DNA of 64,000 nt, taken from assembly GCF_000243415.2 (NCBI RefSeq), contig NZ_KI912270.1, forward strand, positions 3,162,001 through 3,226,000. Direction: 5' to 3'. The notes below the pieces were generated by a model that ran no database searches, was not told where the DNA came from, and was given only the letters and a program-made list of their open reading frames with translations. This document shows positions 20,343 to 43,252 of the stretch, one piece after another (position 1 is the stretch's first letter; each line of letters begins with the position of its first letter). Source of the DNA: Mycolicibacterium tusciae JS617 (GTDB lineage: Bacteria; Actinomycetota; Actinomycetes; Mycobacteriales; Mycobacteriaceae). The translations under genes and the position numbers were made by a program.

Positions 20343-21330
20343 TCGATCGCCGCAGTTCCTTGAGCCGCCGGCGAATTGGCGTCGGCTCCATGTGTTGCAG
20401 GTTCAGCGGTGGATCGAGCTCGCCCAGCACATCGCGTTCGAGCCGACCGAGTACGTCCCGGTCGTCATAGGGCACCGTGACGAGGCGTAGGTGGCTGTGC
20501 ATCCATCGTGTCAGGCCATCCTCGTCGATCTGCGTAACACCATCTGAGTGCGCGATGATCGCACCGAGGGTACGTCTGAACGTAGAGAACTCGTGATTCC
20601 CACCGAGATGCATTGTCATGACCCGCAACCACAGCGTGTTGTTGGATCGCATGCCGCTGGGCCAGCGGGTCGCGCCGGCCAGGCCGGCGTAGATCAGACC
20701 GGGAGCGACTTCAAGGCGTAGGCCCCGGCTCAGGTTTTCAGCGCCCTCCTCGTCGACCCACCAGCTGTACAACCCCGGTCGGTCATATGATGCGCGGCCT
20801 CGTGCGATGAACTCTTCGGGCGAAAGTGCAGCGTCCGCGTCGCTCAGCGCTTGCACACAAGGCTCGATGTCGTTGGCTTCCGCGACTGGCTCGGTAGCGG
20901 TGTCGCCGTACCAGCCCAGCCGTGGCCCCATCTTCAAACCCTCAAGCGGGTTGACAACCCGCGCCCCGCGCTTCTCCAGCTCCGGACGGACCGCATCGAG
21001 GTAGGTTGACCCAGCGTGGATTTCAATGACCTTGTCCTGCAACGTTCCAGCGAGCAATTCCAGGCGAGATGCCACCCAGAGACCCCACGCCGCGCGATAA
21101 GAGGCGGGAGTATCGGGCAGGTACCGCTCGTAGGGCGCGAGCCATTCGTTGGGCGCGACCAGTCCGTGTTCGGCGGAGAGTATGAACCACGGGACACCCA
21201 ACATTTCGGCATAGGCTCGCTGCTTCTTGAAGAGGGCCGAGATGTAGAGATCCTTGGCGGCCGCTGGTCGATTCAACTTGGACTTGACGCAGGTCACCAA
21301 GACGATGTCCGTCGAAGAATCGCCGATCAT
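20332..21330 (-). CDS. DUF6884 / GIY-YIG-like nuclease fusion
   Basis: A 332-residue two-domain protein. Residues about 5-150 match DUF6884 (Val-Thr-Cys-Val-Lys-Ser-Lys at the start; Tyr-Ile-Ser-Ala-Leu-Phe-Lys-Lys; Leu-Ser-Ala-Glu-His-Gly-Leu-Val). Residues about 185-325 look GIY-YIG-like: Gly-Leu-Tyr-Ser-Trp-Trp, Leu-Ile-Tyr-Ala-Gly, a following Arg, then Leu-Glu-Arg-Asp-Val-Leu with Pro-Pro-Leu-Asn-Leu giving the Glu and Asn of the motif. ATG 21330 overlaps the helicase stop by four bases, so both are co-translated. The N-terminal domain could be a base- or nucleotide-processing fold; its role is not established. Confidence 0.78.
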   Translation of the reverse strand: MIGDSSTDIVLVTCVKSKLNRPAAAKDLYISALFKKQRAYAEMLGVPWFILSAEHGLVAPNEWLAPYERYLPDTPASYRAAWGLWVASRLELLAGTLQDKVIEIHAGSTYLDAVRPELEKRGARVVNPLEGLKMGPRLGWYGDTATEPVAEANDIEPCVQALSDADAALSPEEFIARGRASYDRPGLYSWWVDEEGAENLSRGLRLEVAPGLIYAGLAGATRWPSGMRSNNTLWLRVMTMHLGGNHEFSTFRRTLGAIIAHSDGVTQIDEDGLTRWMHSHLRLVTVPYDDRDVLGRLERDVLGELDPPLNLQHMEPTPIRRRLKELRRSITN

Positions 21331-24300
21331 GCGACCGCCACCGTCGATGCTTGGTAAACCTCTGTAGGCATCGGCCGGTGCAGCCGCCACGTGATGGCCA
21401 TGGGCCGGTCTCCCTCATGCGAGACATAGTCTGCGGGACCCAAGAAGACGTAGGGTGAAGTTCCCAGCGCGTTCGCCTTCGTCGCGCGGACGAACAAGAG
21501 GATATGAGTTCCGCGTTCCCGGTGGTGGATGTACCTCTGTCCCGTCGGCGATGCTTCTGACGTCGTGGACTGCGACTCCCAGTGGAACAGCTCCGGACTT
21601 AATGCGAAGTCGCGGTACATCGTTGTCGGTGAATAGTCGCGATCGGATTTCTTCAGCGTGATGAGAAACGCGTCGGCATTGACCTCGGGGCACCAAGCTA
21701 CCCCTTCGCGCATCGTGTTCGGCGTTCGCTGCATGGACGCAAATCCCAGTGCCGCAAGGATTTCCTCGCGCGAGTAGCTCGCGTGCACTTCTAGGGGCAC
21801 ATCCGTCAGCGCCGGTACCAGACGTCCCAGGGCATAGGTGGTCCGTCGCGCAGTGTCGAAGGCGATGTCGATGACTTGCCTCATCTCGTTGGCTACCGCT
21901 TCGCTAGCGAGCGCACCGAGGCCGGATGCGGTGCTGTCAAACCCTCCCCCATTAGGGAACAGAGAGAAGAAGAGCATCTCCACTAAACGCTGTTCGGCTG
22001 GGCTTGGCTGATCGAGCGTTCCGTCGAGCATCGACTTATACGCCGCCCACCGCCGGCGGTCATCAACGTGCGCAAGTGCACGCACTCGCTTGATCAGATC
22101 ATTCTCGCGTTCACCGGCTTCGCTGTCGAACTTGCCCGCCTCGCGACAAAGCGTGGTCCACGACCGGTTGGTCCGCAGGATGTCTTCGAGCGCACGTCCG
22201 GATGCGTCAAGGTAAGACGCCAACCGATCGTCCGGGTGAGCTCGAACCTCTGAGACGAGTGCCGCCCACCTCGGAGTGACCTGCTGACGGATATTCTCGA
22301 GCACTAGCCCTTGCGCCACGCGATCAAGGACGATCTGGCTGCCTGATGGCAAGAATGGGAATCCCTCTTCGACCTGGCGCTGCAACGCCTTTCCAGCGAC
22401 GCCGGTCATTGCGCGAAATCGCTGATCGAAGCGGAACTCGCGACGCTGGTGTCCAACAAAGTCGAGCGCTGTCAGAACCGTCTTACCTCGGGTCAAACGC
22501 AGGCCGCGCCCGAGCTGCTGCAAAAAGACGGTTGCGCTCTCGGTCGGGCGCAAGAACAGCACTGTGTCCACCTCAGGAATATCGAGGCCTTCGTTGAAGA
22601 GGTCGACCGCGAATAGGGCATTGATTTCACAATTCCGCAACGCCTGCAGTGCATTCCGGCGTTCGGCTGCAGATGTTTCGGCGGATACGGCACGCGCGGG
22701 GATACCGGCGTCGACGAATCGCTGCGCCATGTAACGCGCATGCGCGACGCTGACGCAGAACCCCAGGCCGCGCATCGTGGTGACATCAGATACCTTGTCG
22801 CGTAGCTCCTTCAAGACGATTCGGGTTCGTGCATCGTTCCCGGTGTAGAGGCCGTCGAGCGCAGTCAGGTCGTATCCACCGCGCTTCCATTGAACGGATT
22901 CGAGGTCGGTTCCATCGTGAATGCCGAAGTAATGGAACGGGCAGAGGAGAGTCTGCTCGAGGGCTTCCCACAACCGAAGCTCGGCAGCCACTCGCCCACC
23001 GAAAAGATCTCGGACGTCGACACCGTCGGCACGCTCGGGCGTCGCGGTCAATCCAACAAGTTCTAGGGGATTTATATGGTCGAGCAGTCGCTTGTACGAC
23101 GCTGCTTCGGCATGATGGAACTCGTCGACCACGACGACATCGAAATGCTTGGGATCGATTTCGGCGAGCCGTCGCTGTGACAGCGATTGGATGCTCGCGA
23201 ACACGTGCCGCCATTGTGTTGGCTCTTGTCCGTCGACCAACATCTCGCCAAAGGTGGCGTCGGTGAGTACCTCCTGATACATCCGCCGCGACTGGTGCAG
23301 GATCTCTTTGCGGTGCGCGACGAAAAGGAGCTTTAGGTCCCGGTTATGGACTTCCCGCATCAGGCGTCGGTAGTCGAGCGCCGCGACGACGGTTTTGCCG
23401 GTTCCCGTCGCAGCGACGATGAGATTGCGGTGGCGATCGTGAATAGTGCGCTCCGCATCGAGCTGTTCGAGCATTTCAGCCTGGTACGGCTTGGGGTGCA
23501 CCTCGAGGCCGGAAAGTGTCACTATAAGGCGATCGCTGGTGCGGTTGCCTGACGCGGTTTCAAGTGCGGCGCGTAGGCGGTCACCGTCCTGGCTAGGCGA
23601 ATAGAGCTCGAACTCGCGGTTCTCCCAATAGGAATCGAATGTGGCGCGGAACTTTTCGAGCAGGTGTGGTGTAGAGACTGCGGACAGTCGAACGTTCCAC
23701 TCGAGTCCGTCGACCAGCGCAGCATGAGAGAGGTTGCTCGATCCGACGTAGGCAGTGTGAAATCCGGTGTTGCGACGGAGCAGCCACGCCTTCGCGTGCA
23801 GGCGCGTGCGATCGGTCTCGTAATTGATTCGAACTTCGGCACCAAACTCATCGACCAGCGCGTCGAGTGCTCGGGCGTCGGTGGCGCCGAGGTACGTAGT
23901 TGTGATGACGCGCAGCGGCACGCCTCGCTGTTGCAATTCTCGGAGCTGCGCTTCAAGGAGACGCAGACCCTGCCACTTGACGAATGCGCAGAGGAGGTCA
24001 ACCTCATCGGCGCTACCCATCTCCGCGCGCAGCTCAGCCGCCAGAGTCGGCTCATCGCGCGCGTTCGTCATCAGTGCCGCATCGGAGAAGGGCGTCGCGG
24101 GACGGTGCAGGCGGCCACGAGGCAGGGCGCCGACGCTTCCGAGCTCCTCGAGGCGGGTGATCTTTTCCGCTTCCATCGGTTGTAGCGCCTCGTCGGCCAC
24201 ATCTACGTCAGGTAGGACGGCCAGAATCCGCTTCATCAGTTCAGCTCGGTCACCGGCGCCTTTTGCCACCCGCATTGAATGCTCGATGATCGGCGCGAGA

Positions 24301-24428
24301 TGCCGAGCGATGGCCAGCGGCTGCTCAGCGTCGTCGATGGTTCCGAATTCAGGACGCAATTCACCGCCGTCGTCGAACCCTCTGAAGAGCTTCGCGGTGA
24401 GTAACGACTCGTACACCCCCAGGTCCAT
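21327..24428 (-). CDS. PLD-superfamily 2 helicase-DUF3427 protein (predicted defence helicase)
   Basis: A 1033-residue protein. Order: a helical N-terminus; a phospholipase-D-like nuclease domain at about 125-275 with His211-x-Lys213 and Gly-Ser-Ser-Asn at 229-232; an SF2 helicase at about 315-670 with Walker A Thr341-Gly-Thr-Gly-Lys-Thr346, DEFH box Asp435-Glu-Phe-His438, Thr-Ala-Thr motif III and Gln-Gln-Leu-Gly-Arg-Gly-Leu-Arg motif VI; and a DUF3427-like C-terminal region. This architecture recurs in anti-phage and restriction-like islands, where it probably cuts or translocates foreign DNA. It is co-transcribed with the DUF6884 gene and has a PafBC-like promoter. Confidence 0.88.
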   Translation of the reverse strand: MDLGVYESLLTAKLFRGFDDGGELRPEFGTIDDAEQPLAIARHLAPIIEHSMRVAKGAGDRAELMKRILAVLPDVDVADEALQPMEAEKITRLEELGSVGALPRGRLHRPATPFSDAALMTNARDEPTLAAELRAEMGSADEVDLLCAFVKWQGLRLLEAQLRELQQRGVPLRVITTTYLGATDARALDALVDEFGAEVRINYETDRTRLHAKAWLLRRNTGFHTAYVGSSNLSHAALVDGLEWNVRLSAVSTPHLLEKFRATFDSYWENREFELYSPSQDGDRLRAALETASGNRTSDRLIVTLSGLEVHPKPYQAEMLEQLDAERTIHDRHRNLIVAATGTGKTVVAALDYRRLMREVHNRDLKLLFVAHRKEILHQSRRMYQEVLTDATFGEMLVDGQEPTQWRHVFASIQSLSQRRLAEIDPKHFDVVVVDEFHHAEAASYKRLLDHINPLELVGLTATPERADGVDVRDLFGGRVAAELRLWEALEQTLLCPFHYFGIHDGTDLESVQWKRGGYDLTALDGLYTGNDARTRIVLKELRDKVSDVTTMRGLGFCVSVAHARYMAQRFVDAGIPARAVSAETSAAERRNALQALRNCEINALFAVDLFNEGLDIPEVDTVLFLRPTESATVFLQQLGRGLRLTRGKTVLTALDFVGHQRREFRFDQRFRAMTGVAGKALQRQVEEGFPFLPSGSQIVLDRVAQGLVLENIRQQVTPRWAALVSEVRAHPDDRLASYLDASGRALEDILRTNRSWTTLCREAGKFDSEAGERENDLIKRVRALAHVDDRRRWAAYKSMLDGTLDQPSPAEQRLVEMLFFSLFPNGGGFDSTASGLGALASEAVANEMRQVIDIAFDTARRTTYALGRLVPALTDVPLEVHASYSREEILAALGFASMQRTPNTMREGVAWCPEVNADAFLITLKKSDRDYSPTTMYRDFALSPELFHWESQSTTSEASPTGQRYIHHRERGTHILLFVRATKANALGTSPYVFLGPADYVSHEGDRPMAITWRLHRPMPTEVYQASTVAVA

Positions 24429-30339: not shown

Positions 30340-32426
30340 CCGCCCTGCAGCCCCGCGCCATCGGCACCCGACTCACCCGGCTCGACGGACCGGCCAAAGT
30401 CACCGGCACCGCCGACTACGCCGTCGAGCACCGCGTCGACGCGCCGCTGTATCTGCACGCGGTGCAGGCCACCATCTCGCGCGGGCGCGTCACCGCGATG
30501 GACACCAGCCAAGCGCAGGCCGTCGACGGGGTGGAAACGATCCTCACCGTCTTCGATGCGCCACGGCTGGCCGACACGTCCGACGGCGACCTCACCATCC
30601 TGCAGGACAACCAGGTGCACTACCGCGGCCAGTTCATCGGCGCCGTGGTCGCCGACACCGCCGAGAACGCCCGGCAGGCAGCCCATCTCGTGCGTGTCGG
30701 ATACGAGGCCGCCGAGCGCCACACCGAACTGATCGCCGACCATCCGCGGCTGTATGCGCCCGATACGGTCAACGCCGGATACCCGACCGACACCGCCCAG
30801 GGCAGCGCCGAGGCCGCCATGCATCAGGTTCCGGTCACCGTCGACCACACGTACACCACCCCGCATGAGTTCAACAGCCCGATGGAGCCACACGCCTGTA
30901 TTGCCCTGTGGGACAACGACGGCCCCCGGCTGACGCTGTACGACTCGACCCAGGGTGTGCACGTGGTGCGCCAACAGATGGCGTCGTCGTTCGGCATCGA
31001 CAAGGAGCAGATTCGCGTCGTGGCCACACACGTCGGCGGCGGCTTCGGGTCCAAGGGTGCGCCGCACTCGCACAACATCCTGGCTGTGATGGCCGCCCAG
31101 CGCACTCCTGGCCGTCCGGTGAAGTTCGCGATAACCCGCCAGCAGATGTTCGCCGTCGCCGGCTACCGCACCCCCACCATCCAGCGCGTCCGTCTCGGCG
31201 CCCAAAAAGACGGCACGATCACCGCGATCAGCCACGAGGTCATCACGCAGACCGCGACGATCAAGGAATTCGCCGAGCAGGCCGCGGTTCCGGCGCGCAT
31301 GATGTACGCCGGCGACCACCGCAAGACATCGCACCGTGTCGCGCCTTTGGACGTGCCCGTCCCGTTCTGGATGCGCGCACCCGGTGAGTGCCCCGGCATG
31401 TTCGCCCTCGAGGTCGCGATGGACGAGCTGGCCGTCGCGTGCGACCTGGATCCGATCGAGCTGCGGGTGCGCAACGATCCGGAGGTCGACCCCGAAACCG
31501 GCAACCCGTGGTCGGACCGTCGGCTCGTCGAATGTCTGCACACCGGCGCCGAACGGTTCGGCTGGGCGCCGCGCGACCCCACACCACGCGCCCGTCGAGA
31601 CGGTGAATGGCTGGTGGGCACCGGGGTCGCGTCCGCGGTGTATCCGGCGATGATCCAGCCCGGCAACAGTGCACGCATCGAATGCGTTAAGCCACAACGG
31701 TTCGCGGTGCAGATCGGCGCGGTCGACATCGGTACCGGTACGTGGACGGCGCTGACCCAGATCGCCGCCGACGCGCTCGGCTGCGACGTCGGCGCGATCG
31801 ATCTGCAGATCGGCGACACCGACCTGCCTGCCGCGTCGGTCGAGGGCGGGTCGTCGGGCATCAGCTCGTGGGGCCGTGCGATCGTCGCCGCTGCGCGCGC
31901 CTTCCGCGACGAGCACGGGGACACCCCGGCGACCGGCGCCGCCACGACGGCCGACGCCCCCGACAACGACGAGGTCGAGGACTACGGAATGTATTCCTTC
32001 GGAGCGCATTTCGTCGAAGCCCGGGTCAGCCGCTATACCGGTGAGATCCATCTGTCGCGCATGCTGGGGGTGTTCTCGATCGGCCGGGCGATCAACCCGA
32101 CGACGCTGCGCTCGCAGTTGATCGGCGGGATGACGATGGGCATCTCGATGGCGTTGCACGAAGAGGGCGTGCGCGATACACGCTTCGGCCACATCGTCAC
32201 CCAAGACCTGGCGACCTACCACATCAGCTCGCACGCCGACATCCCGCAGATCGACGCGATCTGGCTCGACGGTGTCGATGAGCACTCCAACCCGATGGGC
32301 TCGCGTGGCGCGGGCGAGATCGGCATCGTCGGGTCAGCGGCCGCGGTGGTCAACGCGATCTATCACGCCACCGGCGTGCGCGTGCGAGACTTGCCGGTGA
32401 TGTGTGACGCCTTGCTCGCCACGTGA
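30336..32426 (+). CDS. paoC: Aldehyde oxidoreductase molybdenum-binding subunit
   Basis: A 696-residue catalytic subunit carrying the molybdopterin cofactor. Gly-Gly-Gly-Phe-Gly-Ser-Lys near residues 226-232, Phe-Trp-Met-Arg-Ala-Pro-Gly near 344-350, and the C-terminal Gly-Ala-Gly-Glu661-Ile-Gly with the general-base Glu are present. It oxidises aldehydes (often aromatic) to acids with water as oxygen source. The usual cofactor-insertion chaperone (PaoD/XdhC) is not in the window. Its stop overlaps the GTG of the kinase-like gene. Confidence 0.92.
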
Positions 32427-33193
32427 CCGACCTCGACGACCTTGTCATCGAGTGGGACCTGTGTCCCGACGGACCCGCGATCGACACCGAGGGCTCCCGC
32501 CTGATGCCAGTCCGCGCCGACAGCGCCCCTGCTGTGCTCAAGATCGGCGCCTCCGAGCACGCCCACCTGGTGCTGCGACGGTGGAACGGCCGCGGCGCCG
32601 TCCGCCTCCTGCGCGCGGACCCGCACCGACGGGCCCTGCTGCTGGAGCGCCTGGGGACAACGAACCTCGTGCCCGACGACGACGCCTGCACCGTCATCGC
32701 CGACCTCTACCGCAGACTTCACGTGCCCGCAATGCCGCAATTACCCTCGGCCGCAACGCTTACCGAACAGTGGGCCGAGGACTTCGACGCCCTCCCCCGC
32801 AGCGCCCCTATCCCCCACCGCCTCGTCGAGCAAGCCGCCACGCTGTGCCGCGACCTGGCCACCGCACCCGCCGACACCACGCTGCACGGCAACCTGCACT
32901 GTGGCAAAGTGCTTGCCGCCGAACGTGAACCGTGGCTGGCCATCGCCCCGCAACCCCTCAACGGCGATCCGCCCTTCGAACTCGCCCCGATGCTGTGGAC
33001 CGGCTGGGACGACGGCCCGAACCGCGACGACGTCCGTCACCGCTTCTACACGCTCGTCGACGCTGCAGGCTTCGACGAGGACCGCGCCAAAGCGTGGGCC
33101 ATCGTCCGCATCGTCCGTGCAGCCGTCAACGCCTTGGACCACCCCGGCCAGCTGACCCAGTTGATCACAATCGCCAAGGCAATTCAGGACTGA
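32423..33193 (+). CDS. APH(6)/streptomycin-kinase-like protein, probably inactive
   Basis: A 256-residue protein with the fold and motifs of streptomycin 6-kinase. The ATP-binding Lys40 is kept (Ala-Val-Leu-Lys). The catalytic loop, normally His-Gly-Asp-Leu-His-x-Gly-Asn, reads His155-Gly-Asn157-Leu-His-Cys-Gly-Lys162. The Asp of the Ala-Ile-Asp-Pro metal site is Ala175. Loss of the catalytic base and both magnesium ligands argues for a pseudokinase or a dead resistance gene. It is coupled to paoC by a GTGA overlap, so it may instead have a structural role linked to that enzyme. Confidence 0.8.
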   Translation: MTDLDDLVIEWDLCPDGPAIDTEGSRLMPVRADSAPAVLKIGASEHAHLVLRRWNGRGAVRLLRADPHRRALLLERLGTTNLVPDDDACTVIADLYRRLHVPAMPQLPSAATLTEQWAEDFDALPRSAPIPHRLVEQAATLCRDLATAPADTTLHGNLHCGKVLAAEREPWLAIAPQPLNGDPPFELAPMLWTGWDDGPNRDDVRHRFYTLVDAAGFDEDRAKAWAIVRIVRAAVNALDHPGQLTQLITIAKAIQD

Positions 33194-33336: not shown

Positions 33337-33359
33337 ATGTCGGCGGCGTGTCCTATGTT
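33337..33359 (+). promoter_or_regulatory. PafBC-like promoter of jetA
   Basis: ATGTCGGCG (33337-33345), eight bases, TATGTT (33354-33359): seven of nine positions of tTGTCRGTG plus a full TAnnnT at the right spacing. The predicted transcription start is near 33366, giving a leader of about 30 bases before GTG 33398 with AGAGGA as ribosome-binding site. Near-identical arrangements precede jetB and jetC. Confidence 0.65.
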
Positions 33360-33397
33360 GAGTCCTCCGGATCGATGCACTGAATAGAGGAACGCGG

Positions 33398-34834
33398 GTG
33401 AACGAGTACGCAGGAGCCGCTGACCTGCTGGAGCTCAACCGCGACCTGCAGGGTTCCCGCGCCATCCGCCTGCTCGCCGCAACCAACCTCAGCCTCTACG
33501 CGACGCTGATGGAGCGTCACCTGTCCGACGGCGCGGTCGCCGAGACCGAACTCGTCGTGCGCCTCGAACGCGACCTCGCCGATCTAGACGACCCCCAGTC
33601 CGGCCTCGCCCTCATCAAGTCCTGGGCCGCCCAAGGCTGGCTGCACCGCATCGTCGACGAACGCCACGACCAGAACGTCTGCTACCTCACCCAGGACACC
33701 CGACGGGCGCTGGACTTCCTGCGCGGCATGCGCCGCCAGGACACCATCGCCACCGGCGGCTCGATCACCGGCATCGCGTCGCGACTCAAGCAGGTCGCGC
33801 TGCGCGTCGACAACGATCCCGCCCGCATCCGCAAGCACATCGAAGCCGAAATCGCCGCTCTCCACGAGGAACTCGAGGCATTGGACGCCGGGCAGCGTCC
33901 GGCACCCGACGTCACCGACTGCTACGACGAGGCCCGCGCCATCGCCCTGCAGATGGAACGCCTCATCACCGACATCGGCCAATACGGCACCATGATCGAG
34001 CAGGCCACCGCGGCGCTGGACGAACCCATCGACTCCAACACCGCCTACCGCGACCGCCAGCGCCAGATGTACACCGACTACCAAACCGCCTGGGACTCCC
34101 AGGGCCGCGACTCCCACCGCGCCTTCCTGCGCATGATCAACGACCCCGACCAACGCGCCGAATTCGAGACCGACGTCGCCGCCGTCGCCGAAGCGCTGCC
34201 CGCCCTCGACCCCGCCCTGCGCAAGGTCATGGCCGGCTTCTTCGAACTCGTCGGCCACCAGATCGACGAAGTCGAACGCATCCAGCAGCGCTGCGCCCAG
34301 CGCGTCAAACGCTTCACCGCCTTCGGCACCATGGAGCAGAGCCGCGGGGTGGCCCGCCAACTCAACGAAGCCATCGGCGCCGCCCGCGCCTTGTTGAAGT
34401 CCAGCTTCACCGACTCCCGCCTCGACATCGACGTCCCCCTGACTCGCCACGCCATCAGTTCCATTGGCGCGCTGAGCTTCAAGATCGGCGACCTGTCCAA
34501 CCCCAAGCCCGCCGAACACGCCGCGAACGACGTCGACCTCACCAGCTTCGCCGCCCTCACCACCCAGGTCGACGCCCCCGCCATGTCCGACATGCTCAAC
34601 CGCGCCCTGCGCGACGGGCCCGTCGAACTCCCCGACGCCGTCGCCATGCTCGACACGGCCTACCTCGGCCACGTCATCGTGCTGTGGTCGTGGGCGCTCA
34701 CCCAACCCAACCCACAACAAGCCGAGTCGACCACCGTCCGCTTCCGCTCCCTCGACGGCCGCGACCGCGAAATGGCCGTCCCCCGTTTGACCTTCACCGA
34801 GCCCATCACCACCCTCGCCGGAGCGGGCACGTGA
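33398..34834 (+). CDS. jetA: Wadjet protein JetA (DUF3375, MksF/kleisin-like)
   Basis: A 478-residue DUF3375 protein of normal family length. It has an N-terminal winged-helix-like region (Leu-Leu-Ala-Ala-Thr-Asn-Leu-Ser-Leu-Tyr; Leu-Thr-Gln-Asp-Thr-Arg-Arg-Ala-Leu-Asp-Phe-Leu), long helices in the middle (about 110-340) and a C-terminal domain. In Wadjet, JetA is the kleisin-like subunit that bridges the JetC SMC heads and recruits JetB to sense and restrict small circular DNA. GTG 33398 follows AGAGGA. Unlike standard jetABCD operons, the next gene is not jetB but an ERCC4-Lsr2 nuclease. Confidence 0.92.
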   Translation: MNEYAGAADLLELNRDLQGSRAIRLLAATNLSLYATLMERHLSDGAVAETELVVRLERDLADLDDPQSGLALIKSWAAQGWLHRIVDERHDQNVCYLTQDTRRALDFLRGMRRQDTIATGGSITGIASRLKQVALRVDNDPARIRKHIEAEIAALHEELEALDAGQRPAPDVTDCYDEARAIALQMERLITDIGQYGTMIEQATAALDEPIDSNTAYRDRQRQMYTDYQTAWDSQGRDSHRAFLRMINDPDQRAEFETDVAAVAEALPALDPALRKVMAGFFELVGHQIDEVERIQQRCAQRVKRFTAFGTMEQSRGVARQLNEAIGAARALLKSSFTDSRLDIDVPLTRHAISSIGALSFKIGDLSNPKPAEHAANDVDLTSFAALTTQVDAPAMSDMLNRALRDGPVELPDAVAMLDTAYLGHVIVLWSWALTQPNPQQAESTTVRFRSLDGRDREMAVPRLTFTEPITTLAGAGT

Positions 34835-34944
34835 GTGCAACCGCCGCCGCGGACCGGCCCCGCTGAGGTGTTCGGACGCTAACCGCACACGCCCGCGTCA
34901 GGGGTGTTGTGCCAGATCTTGGGCGCACCCGGCAGACTCGGGGT

Positions 34945-35934
34945 GTGGCGGAGATGGTCATCGCGCTCAACCCGGATGAGGATTCCCGGCTGCCGTATCT
35001 GCTGCGGCTTCCGCAGCCCGGCGGCGACCTGCTGTTTCGGACGTCGGGGACGTGGCCGCGGGTCAAGGCGCTGTACTGCCACCCGGTGAGCCTCGACGAA
35101 TGGCCTGCCGATGCGGAGATCATCGAACGCGCCGAACTGCGCTCGTGTCAGCGCCGCGGTGGGGCCATCGATGTGATTCTGCAGCGCGCGAGGGAGAACC
35201 GCTCCCAGCTGGTGTTCACCACAGCACGCGGCCGCGACGCCGTCTTCTGGCAGGCGCCGCGCACCCGCAAGCAGGCACGTCCGAACGTGCGTACCCCGAC
35301 CGCGCGCGCCCAGGGCATCGAGGGGCTGCAGATCCTGGTCGACTCACACGAGCGGTATGCCTACCGGTTTGGCACCCAGCAGGCGAGCACCGTCGCGCGG
35401 GCGCTGCCGTGCGGAGACTACGGTCTCGAGGTCGACGGACAGTTGGTCGCCAGCGTGGAACGCAAGTCTCTGGCCGATCTGGTCTCCAGTCTGACCAATG
35501 GCAAGCTGCGCTATCAGGTCGCCGATCTGGCTGCACTGCCGCGCGCGGCCGTTGTCGTGGAGGACCGCTACTCACAGGTGTTCAAGCTCGACTATGTCCG
35601 TCCCGCCGTGGTCGCCGACGGGCTGGCCGAACTGCAGATCCGCTGGCCCAACGTGGCGATCGTGTTCTGCGAGACCCGTCAGCTCGCCGAGGAATGGACC
35701 TACCGGTTCCTCGCCGCCGCGCATACCTGGGCGGCCGCTGAAGACGCGGCGCTGCAACGTATCTCGCCCACTATGCTCACGGTTGCCGATCGCGATCAGG
35801 CGGCCGCAGCGCCCGAGCCGAACACCGCTGAGGTTCGGGCCTGGGCGCGCACCGCCGGGCTCGCCGTCCCCGACCGCGGCAAGCTTCGCCCCGACATCTG
35901 GCAGGCCTGGCACGCCGCCAACGACCCACAGTGA
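34945..35934 (+). CDS. ERCC4-type nuclease fused to an Lsr2-like DNA-binding domain
   Basis: A 329-residue protein. An N-terminal region (1-125) ends near a basic segment. An ERCC4/XPF-type nuclease domain follows, with Asp133, Glu136-Arg137, Gly-Asp158-Tyr and the signature Glu172-Arg173-Lys174 ... Asp178. A C-terminal stretch (about 295-326) resembles the Lsr2 DNA-binding tail (Val-Arg-Ala-Trp-Ala-Arg; Asp-Arg-Gly-Lys), which in Lsr2 targets AT-rich foreign DNA. GTG 34945 or ATG 34954 fits the family N-terminus; a GTG at 34909 is also open. It lies between jetA and jetB on the same strand and could supply nuclease activity to the system, though homologues also exist alone. Confidence 0.85.
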   Translation: MAEMVIALNPDEDSRLPYLLRLPQPGGDLLFRTSGTWPRVKALYCHPVSLDEWPADAEIIERAELRSCQRRGGAIDVILQRARENRSQLVFTTARGRDAVFWQAPRTRKQARPNVRTPTARAQGIEGLQILVDSHERYAYRFGTQQASTVARALPCGDYGLEVDGQLVASVERKSLADLVSSLTNGKLRYQVADLAALPRAAVVVEDRYSQVFKLDYVRPAVVADGLAELQIRWPNVAIVFCETRQLAEEWTYRFLAAAHTWAAAEDAALQRISPTMLTVADRDQAAAAPEPNTAEVRAWARTAGLAVPDRGKLRPDIWQAWHAANDPQ

Positions 35935-36012
35935 CCGGACCCTCCGGCTGCGCCACACGCTCGTGCCGCACTCGCCGCCGTCGTCCGCGGCGGCGCGTTC
36001 GGTCGACTTTCG

Positions 36013-36098
36013 AGTTGCCAAGCTCCGAGCGACATAGTCGCTGATGGTGGGACAAGCCGTCGTAGTTGAGCGACAGAGTCGCTCAGAGGCTGGCAACT
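36013..36098. repeat. Interspersed palindromic repeat element, copy A
   Basis: An 86-base element bounded by AGTTGCCA (36013-36020) and TGGCAACT (36091-36098). It contains two internal inverted repeats, AGCGAC-ATA-GTCGCT (36028-36042) and GAGCGAC-AGA-GTCGCTC (36068-36084). Its reverse complement aligns along its length with the element at 61141-61220, including the shared block TGTCGCTCAACTAC and the AGCTTGGCA end. Size, terminal repeats and location between genes suggest a MITE- or REP-like element. Confidence 0.75.
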
Positions 36099-36310
36099 TG
36101 GATAGTGCCTCCGGCCCCTCATCGGGCCGCACAAGCCGAACTATATGCGCCGGAAGCCCCCTCGGGACGTGGCCACCGAACATCACCTGCCTCATGCTTC
36201 ACAGCAGCACCGTCCACCCGTGATGCCTTGGGACGCAGGATTTCCGCTGACGTCGGCAAACCGGTGACGCCGCTAATTCACCGCCGACACGAGCCTCTCC
36301 CGTGCCCAAC

Positions 36311-36333
36311 ATGTCGGAACGGTGACCTATGTT
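36311..36333 (+). promoter_or_regulatory. PafBC-like promoter of jetB
   Basis: ATGTCGGAA (36311-36319), eight bases, TATGTT (36328-36333). The TGTCG core, spacing and -10 fit tTGTCRGTG-N8-TAnnnT; the GTG part is weaker. The CCGCCGACACG box begins exactly 30 bases upstream, as at jetC. Confidence 0.6.
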
Positions 36334-36369
36334 GGGGCGTCCGACCAATAACAGAGCGAGGAAATGCAC

Positions 36370-37059
36370 GTGACCACAGAAGCCGACATCGACTTCTCCT
36401 CCCTCCCCCAGGTCGACCAACAGACCGCCCGGCCGCCCGGCATCCGCCGTCCCCGATTCGACGGTGACGTCTCCGAACTCCCCGACCGCGCCTGCTGGGC
36501 ATTGCAACACCTGCTCACCCGCCGCTACCTCAGCGCCGAGGCCGACGCCGACGTCTACAGCTGGGTCCTCGAATACCGGAAGGAACTCGCCGTCCGGCTC
36601 TCCGAACTCGACCTGATCCTGCGCATCGTCGACGGCACCGACATCGCGTTCATCGAACAGGCCCGCTACGAATCCTCCAGGGGCATCAAGGTTCTGCGCC
36701 GCGAGCCGCTGGGTACCTACGACTCCATCCTCGCGCTGCATCTCGCCCAGATGATGCGTGCCGCCGCCGGACAGAGCGTCCTCATCAGCCGCGAAGAGAT
36801 GCACGGCCTGTTCTCCGCCATCCTCAACGACACCGACCGCGACGCCGTCACCTTCGCCGCCCGCATCGACGCCGCCATCGCCCGCCTCACCGGCCTGGAG
36901 ATCCTGCGCAAGAGCCGCGACGACGAGGACAGCTACACCATCTCCCCCGTCATCACCGCCATCATGACCGCCTCGGTCATCACCGAGTTGCAGCAGCAGT
37001 TCGAACAGCTCCTCAACGGCGGCGCGCCCGCCGAAGGCGACGAGGGCGAAGACGAGTAA
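36370..37059 (+). CDS. jetB: Wadjet protein JetB (DUF4194, MksE-like)
   Basis: A 229-residue DUF4194 protein of typical size. It is a winged-helix KITE-like subunit that binds the JetA kleisin and contacts DNA in the complex. Residues about 45-210 hold the conserved Leu-Leu-Thr-Arg-Arg-Tyr-Leu-Ser, Leu-Asp-Leu-Ile-Leu-Arg-Ile-Val and Ile-Leu-Arg-Lys-Ser-Arg segments; the last 20 residues are acidic. GTG 36370 has GAGGA at good distance; ATG 36364 is an alternative two codons earlier. The stop lies six bases from the stop of the convergent LppA-type lipoprotein gene. Confidence 0.88.
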   Translation: MTTEADIDFSSLPQVDQQTARPPGIRRPRFDGDVSELPDRACWALQHLLTRRYLSAEADADVYSWVLEYRKELAVRLSELDLILRIVDGTDIAFIEQARYESSRGIKVLRREPLGTYDSILALHLAQMMRAAAGQSVLISREEMHGLFSAILNDTDRDAVTFAARIDAAIARLTGLEILRKSRDDEDSYTISPVITAIMTASVITELQQQFEQLLNGGAPAEGDEGEDE

Positions 37060-37065
37060 CGCCTC

Positions 37066-37623
37066 TTACTTGGGCGCTCCGTCGGACTCACTGAGCCGAC
37101 AGTCGGACTTGGCGGTGAGCGTCGATGCCTTCTGGGTGCCCAACCGGAACTCGACACCGTCGGGCCCGGCGATATAGACGTCATGGTCGGCGGGATTGTC
37201 CTTGAACGTCCCGAACTCCGATGCTCCCACTTGCGCGGCACCATCTTTGAGGATCTGCAGTGCCTGCGGCCACACGGCGTCGGGAATCGGGCCGCTGAAA
37301 ACGGCCATGAGATACGCCTGCTTGGCGTTCGTCTCGGCGTATTCACCGCCGCACCCCACCCAGGTGTTCTGTTCGATGATGAAGGTCGTGCCGGGCGTCA
37401 GCGCGGCGATGCTGCCGGCCATGTTCTGAACGGCTGCTTGGTATTCCGCCTGCGCGGCTTCCAGGGAGGGTTTGGACTGCAGCTCCTGTTCGAGCTGCGC
37501 TGAGTCGGTTTCAGACACGCTGGTGGACTCTCCTCCCGTACTCGTCGATCCGTCGCACCCGGCGACGCCCGCCACGCAGACAAGGCTGAATGCCAAGCCC
37601 ACGACCATCTTTCGTAGCGTCAC
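37066..37623 (-). CDS. LppA-like lipoprotein
   Basis: A 185-residue lipoprotein with lipobox Ala-Gly-Cys at residue 23. The domain resembles mycobacterial LppA: Tyr-x-Ala-Ala near the helix, Cys-Gly-Gly-Glu-Tyr-Ala-Glu, Gly-Pro-Asp-Gly-Val-Glu-Phe-Arg-Leu and a final Asp-Cys-Arg. It should be anchored on the outer face of the plasma membrane. GTG 37623 overlaps the stop of the upstream hydrolase gene (GTGA), so it belongs to the EspC-hydrolase-lipoprotein cassette. Molecular role unknown. Confidence 0.82.
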   Translation of the reverse strand: MTLRKMVVGLAFSLVCVAGVAGCDGSTSTGGESTSVSETDSAQLEQELQSKPSLEAAQAEYQAAVQNMAGSIAALTPGTTFIIEQNTWVGCGGEYAETNAKQAYLMAVFSGPIPDAVWPQALQILKDGAAQVGASEFGTFKDNPADHDVYIAGPDGVEFRLGTQKASTLTAKSDCRLSESDGAPK

Positions 37624-39266
37624 CGGAAGGGGACCCCCGGTAGCAATGGGGGTGTCGGCGGCGCTACGGGCGGCGGTGGCGGTGGCGCAAGGACCTGGTT
37701 GTCCGGCAACCCGGCCACGACCGCGGCCAAGTTATAGCCGGACATGCGCAACTGGTTGTCGCTTCCCAGCCGGGCGTAATCCGAGTGCGAGTGAACGCCC
37801 TCCCGGACGACTCCGCCCGGATCGGGCCCGGCTGCCGCCGACAGTTCGGGGAACATTCCGGCGTACGGGTTGACCCCCCACCCGTGCAGCGGGGCCAGCT
37901 CCGCCACGGCGCCTGAGATCGGATCATCCATCCCGCGCATCACATAAGCATGCCCTGCGCCGAGCCCCAACTGGTCGGAACTCGTCAGCTCCAAGCCCGG
38001 TGAACCGTAAAACACGACGTCGTTCACGGGATGCAGCCCTTGGGCATTGAGCTCTTGCAGGGCCAACGATGACGTCAACGAGCCATAGGAATGTCCGAGC
38101 AAGGTCAGGTGACCGTCGGGGTTGTTGGCGCGGACCTGTTCGAGATACGACGACAGGCTGTCGGCCCCCAGTCGGGCCTGCCCGTCCCCCATGGTGGCCA
38201 AGGCATCCGCCGGGCTGAGCGTGTTGATCGGGTTGGGCGGCGGGTCGTAGCCCATCCAGGCGACCGTCGCCGCCGAGCCGGGCAGACCGGCGTTCCTCAA
38301 CTGGCGCTGCGCTTCGAGTTGGAGGTTGGACGCCTCGGTGACCATGTCGGGCAACGAGCCCTTGGCGGTCGAGCCGATCCCGGGAACCGTGACCGAGACG
38401 TTGCGCGCGGTGTCGGGGTTGCCCACCGCGACCGCGGCCAGCACCGGCCTTCCGGTCCCGGTGCGCGGATCGAACACGGTCAGGTAGGTCTCGGGGGCCT
38501 TCCCCAGCGCGTCATGGACGGCGTTCAATTCGCCGAGACGCGACTTGGCGCCGTCCAATTGGCCCTTGAGGTCATTGAGCCGATCCAGCGCCCCCGCACT
38601 GTGGTCTCCGGTCGTGTACGCCTGCCGGGCCAGCTCGTCGATCTGATGCTGCAACTGATCCACGCGCGCCTGCGTGCCGGCTCGTTCGCGCTCCAGCGCC
38701 GCTTCGTTCGCATCACTGGCGACCTGAGTCGGCGTCAATCCCTCCGCGCCGACCGGCGGGCCCGCCTGCGGAATGGGTGTCTTGCCGGTCGCCATGTTGA
38801 TGGCATTGGCCAAGTCGTCATCGATGCCGGCCGCCTCGGCCAACAGTGCCGTCAGTTGTGGTTGTAGTTCCGCTTGGGCCAGGGCCGCATCCGCTTTCGT
38901 GATGGTCGAACCCGCCGCGGGGACAAAGGCATTGGATGTCGCGTCGAGTTCCATCCCGAGCTGATGGGCGCGGTTTCGAAGATTGGTCAGCTTGCCCTTG
39001 AGGGTCTCGATGTCGTCGGCGGCCCGGTCGGCCGCCCTGGCCACCGCAAGCGCTTCCGCGCCGTGCGCGTCGAGATCCTTGCGCGTCTGGTCGATGGAGT
39101 CCCTAGCGGCTCGCGACGCGTCGCCTCCCCACGTCCCGAAGGCGGGAAGTTGCGCGATGCCGTCGGCTGCTTCGCGCGCCGCTTCGGCGCGACTGCGGGT
39201 GGCGTGGAACACCTCGCGCACGTCGCCCGCATTCCAGCGGTCGATGTCGGCGACGGAGACGGTCAC
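37620..39266 (-). CDS. Type VII substrate-like protein with C-terminal alpha/beta hydrolase domain
   Basis: A 548-residue protein. Residues 1-170 are an EspA/WXG100-like helical delivery domain (Phe-Gly-Thr-Trp-Gly-Gly-Asp near residue 44, ending Asp-Asp-Asp-Leu-Ala). A helical linker and an alpha/beta hydrolase of the DUF1023 type follow, with nucleophile elbow Gly-His-Ser-Tyr-Gly-Ser near residue 395. The tail is Pro-rich. The N-terminal module is paralogous to those of the TNT toxin (6985) and the TPR protein (53196). Probably exported by an ESX system together with the small EspC-like partner; substrate unknown. Confidence 0.85.
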   Translation of the reverse strand: MTVSVADIDRWNAGDVREVFHATRSRAEAAREAADGIAQLPAFGTWGGDASRAARDSIDQTRKDLDAHGAEALAVARAADRAADDIETLKGKLTNLRNRAHQLGMELDATSNAFVPAAGSTITKADAALAQAELQPQLTALLAEAAGIDDDLANAINMATGKTPIPQAGPPVGAEGLTPTQVASDANEAALERERAGTQARVDQLQHQIDELARQAYTTGDHSAGALDRLNDLKGQLDGAKSRLGELNAVHDALGKAPETYLTVFDPRTGTGRPVLAAVAVGNPDTARNVSVTVPGIGSTAKGSLPDMVTEASNLQLEAQRQLRNAGLPGSAATVAWMGYDPPPNPINTLSPADALATMGDGQARLGADSLSSYLEQVRANNPDGHLTLLGHSYGSLTSSLALQELNAQGLHPVNDVVFYGSPGLELTSSDQLGLGAGHAYVMRGMDDPISGAVAELAPLHGWGVNPYAGMFPELSAAAGPDPGGVVREGVHSHSDYARLGSDNQLRMSGYNLAAVVAGLPDNQVLAPPPPPPVAPPTPPLLPGVPFR

Positions 39267-39276
39267 GGTGGCCGCG

Positions 39277-39606
39277 CTACAGCCCTAGGTCGAGGTCACT
39301 TACGGCTTGCTCTGCGCGATTGATGTCCGTCGCCCCGTCGTCGTCCGCCCGTACGTACGCGGCCGCACCGGTACGCAGCCCGTGCGAGTGGTCGACCATG
39401 CGGCCGAACATCGCCGACGTGTCCGCCTGCCACTTCCCCACGGCGTCGGTCAACGCCGCCGCCGACCCCATCGGCAAACCGGCCTGCGCTGCCTCCATGC
39501 GACCGTCCGCCTCGAGGTGGCGGGCGTGGACGTTGTCGGCGTGGACGTCGACGGTGGCAGCCGAGATGTGCAAGTCCTCGGGAGTCACCCTGACTTCGTC
39601 AGGCAC
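39277..39606 (-). CDS. EspC-like type VII secretion substrate
   Basis: A 109-residue DUF2580/EspC-like helical protein (Val-Thr-Pro-Glu-Asp-Leu-His; a central Trp in Gly-Lys-Trp-Gln-Ala-Asp; C-terminal Tyr-Val-Arg-Ala-Asp). GTG 39606 was chosen for the GAGAGGAG six bases upstream. It lies ten bases before the hydrolase gene and is probably its secretion partner. It is divergent from jetC. Confidence 0.85.
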   Translation of the reverse strand: MPDEVRVTPEDLHISAATVDVHADNVHARHLEADGRMEAAQAGLPMGSAAALTDAVGKWQADTSAMFGRMVDHSHGLRTGAAAYVRADDDGATDINRAEQAVSDLDLGL

Positions 39607-39819
39607 GGCCGCTCCTCTCCTCCCGAGCAAATCGCATCACCGCCACAATACTGCTTGCGACCGGTACCGATCGACGCCAAAGTGGAGCTGAGCCGGGCTG
39701 GCTGCCGTGGTGCATCTGCGAGCCCCAGCAGCACCATAAATCTCGTGTTTCACAATGGCATCTGGGTGAAGCCGAGCGGTCGCAATACTCCGCCGACACG
39801 GCCCCTTCCCGCGCCAGAG

Positions 39820-39842
39820 TTGTCGTCCCCGTCGCCTATGTT
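39820..39842 (+). promoter_or_regulatory. PafBC-like promoter of jetC
   Basis: TTGTCGTCC (39820-39828), eight bases, TATGTT (39837-39842). The first six bases of tTGTCRGTG match fully, then the GTG part is lost. The CCGCCGACACG box (39790-39800) lies exactly 30 bases upstream of the TTGTCG, as at jetB, so the two regions are related over about 75 bases. Confidence 0.62.
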
Positions 39843-39874: not shown

Positions 39875-42800
39875 TTGATTGAGCAGTTCCACCTGTCCCG
39901 GCTGCAGGTCATCAACTGGGGCGTGTTCGACGGCTACCACTCCATCCCGTTCAGCAGCGGCGGCGCGCTGATCGCCGGCGCCTCCGGCAGCGGCAAGTCC
40001 TCTCTGCTCGACGCGATATCGCTGGGCTTCCTGCCGTTCAACCGCCGCAATTTCAACGCCTCCGGCGACAACACCGCCGCCGGATCCAGCGCCGGGCGCC
40101 GCACCGTCGACAAGTACGTCCGCGGCGCCTGGGGCCAGCGCAGCGACGGCGGCACCAGCCGCGTCATGTATCTGCGTGGCGACGGCACCGCCTGGTCGGC
40201 CGTCGCGGTCACCTACGCCAGCGACTCCGGGCGTACCGTCACCGGCCTGGTACTCAAATGGCTCACCGGCGAGTCGCGCAACGACTCGTCGAGCCGCTTC
40301 ATCCTCGGCGACGGCGACCTCGACATCGAAGACGTCTGCAACCGCTGGGCCTCGGGCCGCTTCGACGCGAAAGTCTTCACAGGGGACTGGCGCTTCTCCA
40401 CCAAGGTCGAATCCCAGTACCTCGCCCAGCTGTACGCCACCATCGGCATTCGCGCCTCCGACGCCGCCCAGCAGCTGCTCGGTAAGGCCAAGTCGCTGAA
40501 AAGCGTTGGTGGACTTGAGCAGTTCGTCCGCGAGTTCATGCTCGACGAACCCGACAGCCTGGCCCGGCTGCCCGAGGCGCTCAAGCAGATCGACCCGCTG
40601 GTCGAGGCCCGCGAACTGCTGGCCGTCGCGCAGAAGAAACGCAAGATCCTCGGCGACATCGAGGCCATCCAGCACCGCTACACCTCCGAGTCCTCCGACC
40701 TCGGCATCATCGACCTCGTCGACGCGCCGATGGTGCGCGCATTCACCGACCACGTCCGTGCTGAGCAGATCCCTGACCAGATTTCCGGGCTGGACAGCAC
40801 CATCGATCAGCTCGAGAACGAGTACGAGGACGTCACCCGCAGCCTCAATCTGGCCAAGGCGGAAGCGGATTCGCTCAACGCACAGATCAGCGGGTCCAGC
40901 GCGAACATCGCCCCGCTGCAGTCCCAGGTCACCGCCGCCGAGACCGAGGCCGAGCAGGTCGAGCGCCGCCGATCCGCCTACGAGGACCTGCTCACCGCCC
41001 AGGACGTCGAGATTCCGGACACCGCCGACGAGTTCTGGAACCTCCGCGAGGAACTGCTCACCCAGGCCACCGAACTGCTCGCCAAGGTCGAACGGAATCG
41101 CGAGGCATCCACCGACGCCGAGTACGCCCAGAAATCGGCCCGCATCGCGCGCGACGACGCCGCCAAGGAACTCAAACGCGTCGAGCATGTCGGCTCGGCA
41201 CTGCCGGAGTTCGCCATCGCGATGCGCGACCACATCTGCGCGGCCATCAAAGCCGACTCCGCCGAGCTGCCCTACATCGCCGAACTGCTCGACCTGAAGC
41301 CCGACCAGACCCGTTGGCGCACCGCCGTCGAGAAGGTCTTGAGAGGGGCCGGGCTGCGGCTGCTGGTGCCCGACCAGCACTGGGAGAAGGTGCTGCGCTT
41401 CGTCAACGAGACCGACATGCGCGGCCGCCTGCAGCTGCACCACGTCCGCGCGAAGTTCCTCGGCGCAGAGCCGGCAGACCCCGAGCCGAACACGTTGGCG
41501 GGCAAGCTCTTCGCCGTCGACCCCGCGCATCCGTGCGCGGCCGAGGCCGTCGACGTCATCACAGCAGCCGGCGACCACATCTGCGTCGACACCCCCGACG
41601 TGTTCGCCCGCTTCCGCCGCGCGGTCACCGACACCGGGTTGTACAAGGACTCCGACCGGCTCGCCGTCAAGGACGACCGCAAAGCCGTCAGGCAGTCCGA
41701 ATACCTGTACCAGGGTGACGTCACCGCGAAGATCAACGCGCTGACGTTGGAACTCGCCACCGCCGAGGACGCGTACCAGAAGGCCCGCCGCGTCGCGGAC
41801 GACATCGCCGCGCAACGCCAGCAGTGGCGCGACCGCGCGACCGCGTGCAAGGCGATCTGCGAGCAGTACCCGCAGTGGAGCCAGATCGACACCGAGACCG
41901 CCGACGGGCACGCCGAGCGGTTGCGCGAACAGTACGAACTGCTGCTCGCCGAGAACCCCGACCTGGACGCGCTCAATGCGCGCGCCGACGAATGCTGGTC
42001 GCAGATCCAGAAATTCATGACGCGCCGAGGCGCGATCCAGACCCGGCGCGACGGCCTCGACGATCGCCGCACCCGGTTGATGGAGCTGGCCGAGCGGCTG
42101 TCGCCGGCGTTCGTGTCCGAACCGCTGACCGAGCTGCTGCACCGCTACGCCGCGCAGCTGCCCGTCTCGCTCGAGTTGCTCGATCCCGAACCGCACCGCG
42201 ATGCGTTGTTGACGTCGATCAAGAAGGATCGTGAGCAGTTGCGCGAGAGCCGGCGTCGGTCTTACGACGAGCTGGCCCGCATCCTCAACACGTTCGACAC
42301 GTCGTTCCCCGATGCGATTCCGAACGACAGCGAGGACTTCGACGAGCGGGTGCACGACTACGTCGCGCTGTGCCGCCACATCGACGAGCGCGAATTGCCC
42401 GAGGCCTACGAGCGGATGATGCGCCTGGTCACCGAGCAGGCGCCCGACGCGATCCTCACGCTGCACCGCGTCGCCGAGCAGGAGACGCGGCGCATTGCCG
42501 AGCAGATCAACCGCGTCAACACCGGACTGGGCTCGGTGGAGTTCAATCGCGGCACCCGGCTCACGCTGCGCGCCACCCCGCGGCAGCTGCCCGCGGTCAC
42601 CGAGCTCACCGAGATCGTGCGGTCGATCTCGCGACGCATCGCCGAGGTGGGGCTGGGCGACAAGCAGGCGATCCTCGACCAGTACGCGGACATTCTGCGG
42701 CTGCGCAACCGGTTGGCATCCACCGCACCGGAAGACAAGGCGTGGACGCGCGACGCGCTCGACGTGCGCAACCGGTTTACGTTCGACTGCGCGGAGTGGG

Positions 42801-43252
42801 CGGGCGACGAGTTGATCCGCACCCACAGCAACGCGGGCGACAACTCCGGCGGTGAGCAGGAGAAGCTGATGGCGTTCTGCCTCGCGGGCGCGCTGAGCTT
42901 CAACCTGGCCAGCCCCGAAAGTACGGACAACACACCGGTGTTCGCGCAGCTGATGCTCGACGAGGCGTTCAGCAAGTCCGATCCGCAGTTCGCGCAGCAG
43001 GCGCTGTCGGCGTTCCGCAAGTTCGGCTTCCAGTTGGTGATCGTGGCGACGGTGCAGAACGCCACGACGATCCAGCCCTACATCGACAGCGTGGTGATGG
43101 TGTCCAAGACCGAAGCGACGGGCCGAAACGTCCGCCCCGTCGCGACCGTCGCCACCAGGACCATCTCGGAGTTCACGTCGATCAAGCAGGAGATGCGCAA
43201 GACGGCTGCGAAGGTGCCTGCCGGGGTCTGGTTCTTGAATCAGCGAAGGTAG
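39875..43252 (+). CDS. jetC: Wadjet protein JetC (MksB-like SMC ATPase)
   Basis: A 1125-residue SMC-like protein. Head motifs: Walker A Gly35-Ala-Ser-Gly-Ser-Gly-Lys41-Ser; ABC signature near the C-terminus (Asn-Ser-Gly-Gly-Glu-Gln-Glu-Lys-Leu); Walker B Leu-Met-Leu-Asp-Glu-Ala-Phe. Two long coiled-coil arms (about 280-460 and 680-900) flank a hinge. It is the loop-extruding motor of Wadjet. TTG 39875 follows AGAGGA. In typical loci jetD (DUF3322/DUF2220 nuclease) comes next; here the following gene is a convergent exported protein overlapping by 13 bases. Confidence 0.93.

Follow-up and report, generated by a model that had tools for sequence, protein, structure and literature searches.

The closest described relatives of the genes analyzed here are the type I Wadjet systems (JetABCD, also MksBEFG or EptABCD) and the MksBEF complex of Pseudomonas aeruginosa, which combines an SMC protein, a kleisin, and a KITE protein and lacks the nuclease MksG. 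For M. smegmatis, the available portions of two reports describe a four-gene mksFEBG/eptABCD operon, plasmid restriction by intact EptC, and an eptC mutation in strain mc2 155 (PMC10123090, PMC10586767). We analyzed a 64-kb stretch of the 7.3-Mb genome of Mycolicibacterium tusciae JS617 (contig NZ_KI912270.1), called the window below. It encodes JetA1, JetB1, and JetC1 proteins like a type I Wadjet system, but JetD was not found and the genes are detached from each other, each with its own promoter, instead of forming a single operon. The set of SMC protein, kleisin, and KITE protein without the nuclease is that of MksBEF of P. aeruginosa, from which the system in the window differs by its actinobacterial type and its PafBC-type promoter; a role on the chromosome would follow from this likeness only by analogy. 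The promoters and genes concerned are the following.

33337..33359 (+), putative PafBC-type promoter of jetA, with the -26 box ATGTCG and the -10 box TATGTT at 33354-33359; transcription is expected from the box position to start at about 33366
33398..34834 (+), jetA, kleisin, DUF3375, MksF-like; best PADLOC match JetA1 with 848 bits
36311..36333 (+), putative PafBC-type promoter copy of jetB, with the -26 box ATGTCG and the -10 box TATGTT at 36328-36333
36364..37059 (+), jetB, KITE protein, DUF4194, MksE-like; best PADLOC match JetB1 with 384 bits
39820..39842 (+), putative PafBC-type promoter copy of jetC, with the -26 box TTGTCG and the -10 box TATGTT at 39837-39842
39875..43252 (+), jetC, SMC ATPase, MksB-like, with a TTG start; best PADLOC match JetC1 with 2058 bits

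In mycobacteria, PafBC recognizes the motif tTGTCRGTG-N8-TAnnnT. The first-pass annotation of the window had described an (A/T)TGTCG core placed exactly 11 bases ahead of TATGTT in front of jetA, jetB, and jetC. This was confirmed for all three genes, as WTGTCG-N11-TATGTT has three exact matches in the window (33337-33359, 36311-36333, and 39820-39842), all on the plus strand, and none elsewhere in it, and 100 dinucleotide shuffles gave no match. The distance from the end of the boxes to the likely gene start is 38 bases for jetA (33398), 30 bases for jetB (36364), and 32 bases for jetC (39875). In the entire genome, TGTCN-N11-TATGTT occurs seven times, three of these occurrences being the jet sites, and the reversed pattern used as a control does not occur. 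The looser pattern TGTCR-N11-TAnnnT was hardly enriched genome-wide, with 142 matches versus 116 for its reversed form, and a pattern with one additional base gave 41 matches versus 103 for the reversed control. Because the reversed controls are this high (103 and 116), the loose pattern alone is weak genome-wide evidence.

To place this arrangement among its relatives, 297 genomes of the genus were surveyed, 154 of which encode a relative of JetB. We took 100 stretches of at most 20 kb across the identity range and excluded two with another Jet type (L117 and L118), which left 98 loci. In 90 of these, jetA, jetB, and jetC form a compact operon. Besides the window, jetA is separated from jetB in L039, L040, L041, L043, L051, L119, L121, and L122 (of jetA, the stretch of L121 includes just the end, and none was found within that of L122), and jetB is separated from jetC in the window, L043, L121, and L122. 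M. tusciae, M. barrassiae, and M. neglectum are among the named species with detached jet genes. A TGTC-N12-TAnnnT site is present within 160 bases upstream of all nine detached jetB genes and all four detached jetC genes, which come from related species and are not independent trials. Within the same distance it was found in front of none of the 90 jetB and none of the 89 jetC genes of compact operons, one compact jetC being unscored as its start lies outside the covered stretch. The site was likewise missing at jetC in the five loci in which only jetA is detached (L039, L040, L041, L051, and L119). A set of 80 loci from named species, which partly overlaps with the 98 loci by including the same strains, gave the same picture (detached jetB 5/5 and jetC 2/2; compact 0/73 and 0/77 scored, respectively). 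The split label requires two changes on the jetBC tree, and the starred branches force two changes on the jetBC tree and one on the jetA tree. The jetB promoters of the two split groups are nevertheless each other's nearest relatives, so that the genes may have been split once or more than once.

The promoters of the detached genes are not only similar in their boxes. In 9 of the 12 gaps in front of detached genes, the end segment could be aligned (E ≤ 1e-8) with the sequence directly preceding jetA in species with a compact operon, and some of these alignments extend into jetA itself. A gap end of L043, for example, matches the region upstream of jetA in L044 over 210 bp (77% identity, E = 8e-26), and the jetC copy of the window matches the region upstream of jetA in L046 over 71 bp (87%, E = 3e-15). 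The jetB copy of the window aligns with other detached copies, such as that of L041 (141 bp, 84%); over 78 columns its nearest relatives are those of L121, L051, and L041 (0.81 to 0.82), and the best jetA promoter is that of L042 (0.69). Alignments and promoter distances thus bear out the earlier claim that the same promoter precedes all three genes, the copies being related. In the jetC copies of the window and of L043, the stretch after the -10 box is one base shorter, as in the jetA promoter of the compact locus L049, which is their best jetA match. Because of this common feature, the donor of the jetC copy may differ from that of the jetB copy.

L040 preserves a fossil of a lost jetB start behind jetA: counted from the jetA stop codon, 45 of 46 bases agree with the start of the locus' own jetB. 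In addition, its jetB leader resembles the ribosome site and the start of jetA (p = 0.004, 500 shuffles). This suggests a duplication followed by gene loss. The same likeness is seen in the jetC leader of L122 (p = 0.002, 500 shuffles, with jetA of L040 as the reference) and, more weakly, in the leaders of L041 and L119 (p = 0.018 and 0.020, respectively). Duplication with subsequent loss of complementary genes accounts well for L040 and, by inference, is the likely route for the other detached loci. Two further candidates seen by eye, gene remains in the jetB leader of L043 and the end of a jetB gene ahead of jetC in the leader of L122, failed the shuffle test and were discarded.

Several properties of the promoters correspond to those of PafBC-dependent (RecA-NDp) promoters, namely the TGTCR core, the 11 bases to TAnnnT, the lack of a -35 TTGAC, a spacing as at recA, and a third block that is degenerate as at ruvC; the jet promoters differ from them in the missing GTG after TGTCR and in additional, jet-specific conserved blocks. 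Of 99 loci, including the window, 59, all of the main clade, allowed the jetA start to be scored and showed a -10 box of the sought form. When these promoters were anchored on the -10 box alone, TGTC was found at -16 in 44 of the 59, and the base following TGTC was G or A in 38. None of the 59 has TTGAC as a -35 element in the 60 bases preceding the -10 box; downstream of the box it occurred twice, at +5. A scan of spacings from N9 to N15 after TGTC in the main clade gave N12 in 48 of 74 promoters (shuffled mean 0.09, maximum 2), N15 in 3, and no other. In a second jet clade with about 58% protein identity, N12 was present in 6 of 11 promoters (shuffled mean 0.05), and in two further clades in 1 of 9 and 0 of 3.

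The site in front of recA in this genome, TGTCGGTACCGACCTCTAGCGT, has the same spacing as the jet boxes. With recA as a yardstick, TGTC-N12-TAnnnT was found in 20 of 30 fetched loci (59 genomes with a match), each time as TGTC-R-G. With ruvC, which is listed in the PafBC regulon by a review in its available part, it was found in 13 of 30 fetched loci (58 with a match), 6 of the 13 having a purine as the fifth base; the RGTG block is degenerate in the ruvC orthologs, as it is in the jet promoters. The genome contains pafA, pafB, and pafC together, recognizable as the end of a Pup ligase, a WYL-WCX protein, and an HTH_PafC-WYL-WCX protein in a row, and two of its three WYL matches are in pafBC. 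The regulation had been proposed to be independent of LexA, in line with which a LexA-box scan of the window allowing three mismatches, an unspecific scan with 67 hits versus 38 expected, gave no hit in the three promoter stretches. The jet promoters thus look as if they work like PafBC-type promoters and are candidate members of the PafBC regulon.

The nuclease subunit could not be assigned to the system. The domain JetD_C (PF09983) has no match in the M. tusciae genome; among 14 control genomes one, that of Corynebacterium glutamicum, matches. JetD_C is present in 54 of the 297 genomes. Among the 119 closest jetABC carriers, this genome included, 17 have it, versus 37 of the 178 other genomes (p = 0.17). 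In the 17 close carriers it is located on another contig (9 cases) or at least 26 kb from jetB (8 cases), so that in none of the 119 is JetD_C found on the same contig within 26 kb of jetB. In more distant clades JetD lies about 4.5 kb from jetB in some loci, e.g., in G428, G367, and G359. When reading frames of at least 120 amino acids around the 98 loci were clustered, the recurrent families were jetC (98 loci), jetA (96), and jetB (85), and the next family was found in only 13 loci, from which we conclude that there is no fixed fourth gene of this size near jetABC. The proposal of the first-pass annotation that plasmid restriction is coupled to DNA damage in this locus was weakened by these results.

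By analogy, the system is most simply read as an MksBEF-like complex whose genes stand behind a damage-type promoter. We consider it probable that JetABC of M. tusciae is such a complex without JetD, that its genes are controlled by copied PafBC-type promoters and are co-induced by DNA damage, and that it does not cut plasmids itself. JetA, JetB, and JetC would form one SMC complex of kleisin, KITE protein, and SMC protein without a recognizable JetD nuclease. The compact jetABC operon of most relatives has one promoter with a TGTC box at the docking place of PafBC (-26) and a housekeeping -10 box, and in the lineage of the window the genes lie apart, each behind a copy of this promoter, as shown by comparison and, for jetB of the window, via other detached copies. 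Promoter and genes would have been duplicated and complementary genes then lost, a route for which there is one strong fossil. According to the available text of PMC11804915, PafBC is activated by single-stranded DNA and joins RNA polymerase already located on promoter DNA, PafB reading the -26 motif. Activated PafBC would thus let the polymerase start at the three copies together and raise the amount of JetABC, and the simultaneous firing of the three promoters would keep the supply of subunits coordinated despite the loss of the operon. Under damage, JetABC would handle chromosomal DNA as a loop extruder of the MksBEF type and leave plasmids uncut.

The gaps between the detached genes contain the following genes.

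34909..35934 (+), protein with an ERCC4 nuclease domain and an Lsr2 DNA-binding domain, 74 bp after jetA, between jetA and jetB
37066..39630 (-), interval between jetB and jetC with an LppA-family lipoprotein, an alpha/beta hydrolase, and a WXG100-like protein

The genes between jetB and jetC are the same in L043, and the WXG100-like match is weak, below the curated cutoff. Directly upstream of the jetA promoter lies a gene of the APH(6)/hydroxyurea kinase family (32423-33193, plus strand). A large protein encoded at 21327-24428 on the minus strand scores 1110 bits against a type IV methyl-directed restriction enzyme, which was the single strong match when eight other proteins of the window were compared with PADLOC.

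Several results weigh against the copied PafBC-type promoters of a nuclease-free complex, and they bear differently on the alternatives. Three of the 12 gap ends, those of the jetB copies of the window and of L119 and of the jetC copy of L121, have no direct match (E ≤ 1e-8) to the region upstream of a compact jetA, and the jetB copy of the window is for this reason tied to the operon promoter only via other detached copies. Of 13 leaders, only two reached p < 0.005, nine, including both leaders of the window, showed nothing at p < 0.02, and none matched the end of the lost preceding gene at p < 0.05. Convergence, i.e., independent selection of the three promoters for co-regulation, could draw on the missing direct match of the jetB copy, but the homology of about 70 to 210 bp surrounding the boxes, seen in 9 of 12 cases, the similarity of the detached copies to each other, including jetB of the window, and the L040 fossil leave it hardly any credibility. 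Other observations concern the identity of the regulator. The exact box and spacing are absent in 26 of 74 jetA promoters of the main clade; for the other clades the numbers are 5 of 11, 8 of 9, and 3 of 3. Of the claimed match to the PafBC motif, the TGTCR core and the spacing to TAnnnT stood, and the GTG did not, as TGTCG is followed by GCG, GAA, and TCC at the three sites of the window, so that beyond R the RGTG block is absent from all of them. The flanks of the -10 box (-6 to +14; 33348-33368 in the window, and orthologs) are conserved beyond the needs of PafBC, and jetA and jetB are the only two places in this genome with the extended pattern TNNCCTATSTTGRNNNNTCC; jetC is shorter by one base in this part. 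The confinement of this pattern and the extra conservation of the flanks make a jet-specific regulator possible. A single operon promoter would then also have been copied, with a jet-specific or other regulator instead of PafBC using the TGTC box and its flanks. A conserved GACAC box, which lies about 41 bases upstream of the -10 box (34 of 59 jetA upstream regions have it at -42 or -41) and corresponds to part of the TGTC box in reverse complement, would suit such a regulator, and SiwR, another WYL regulator, also relies on the -26 region according to the available text of PMC10693628. We regard this as a serious, if less than even, possibility, as the spacing is exactly that of the recA and ruvC sites and recurs in the second, diverged jet clade, and as the genome offers only one WYL match outside pafBC.

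The absence of a nuclease can be questioned as well. The N-terminal RFDGD-like motif of JetB is kept both with and without a neighboring JetD, and because of this retention a nuclease partner of JetABC is possible. A damage-induced Wadjet system that restricts plasmids by means of an unrecognized nuclease, as the first-pass annotation had envisaged, would be in accordance with this motif, with the strong matches to JetA1, JetB1, and JetC1, and with the precedent of eptABCD in M. smegmatis. The distribution of JetD_C described above and the lack of a conserved fourth gene of at least 120 amino acids near jetABC make it improbable. As a substitute for JetD, the ERCC4-Lsr2 nuclease suggests itself by its position 74 bp downstream of jetA and by its presence near jetABC also in L041, L075, and L119. 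However, full-length ERCC4-Lsr2 genes are rarer in the close jetABC carriers (11/119) than elsewhere (41/178, p = 0.003), and in some genomes (G372, G416, and G462) the family is present in multiple copies, some with identical scores, as expected for a mobile gene. This distribution led us to dismiss the nuclease as a JetD replacement, an idea we now hold to be very improbable. In G368, G395, and G444 an ERCC4-Lsr2 gene and a JetD_C match are no more than 1 kb apart.

PafBC-type sites were also found at other positions of the M. tusciae genome. From the matches listed for TGTCR-N11-TAnnnT (100 of 142) and the TGTCN-N11-TATGTT matches, 17 sites were chosen by eye and inspected: one belongs to recA, seven precede nuclease- or transposon-type genes, and nine have no such gene. 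The seven sites (L219, L220, L223, L225, L230, L233, and L234) end 6 to 8 bases before the starts of two DUF222 genes (one copy assigned by its likeness to the other), three TnpB-like genes, one LAGLIDADG gene, and one HNH gene, a distance that would fit, as for leaderless messages, transcription from a damage-type promoter. Twelve sites of the form TGTCGGTG-N8-TAnnnT are located at the two ends (L215 and L216, about 21 kb in total and a single stretch if the contig is circular) of the 218-kb contig C3 of this genome; C3 also encodes FtsK/SpoIIIE-family and AAA_10 ATPases. Plasmid stretches of M. vanbaalenii (L245, NZ_CP126902.1) and M. adipatum (L246, NZ_CP015597.1) contain 12 and 6 TGTCR-N11-TAnnnT sites, respectively, on one strand and none on the other. 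A site within 150 bases upstream was scored for 11 of 27 genes on the M. vanbaalenii plasmid and 6 of 8 on the M. adipatum plasmid, and 15 of these 17 sites lie 76 to 85 bases before the gene start. Among the matches listed, the literature on such large mycobacterial plasmids does not mention PafBC. As PafBC-type sites cluster on plasmids, precede some TnpB-like and homing nuclease genes, and resemble the jet promoter, one may speculate that mycobacteria use PafBC to sense DNA that enters the cell. Incoming single-stranded DNA would then co-activate plasmid establishment genes and the host's JetABC, and selection would have kept the promoter on each split jet gene; we think this quite improbable.

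In the literature searched, Wadjet and PafBC appeared together only in work about BrxR, as far as the available text of the sources goes, and nothing turned up on a JetD-less mycobacterial Jet system or on operon splitting of this kind. The jet genes provide an example of the break-up of an operon in which the same promoter was kept on each gene, with a surviving fossil. The nuclease-less JetABC of many mycobacteria becomes a candidate member of the DNA damage response, which makes it testable whether Wadjet-type SMC complexes may take part in genome upkeep besides plasmid defense, and what PafBC senses.

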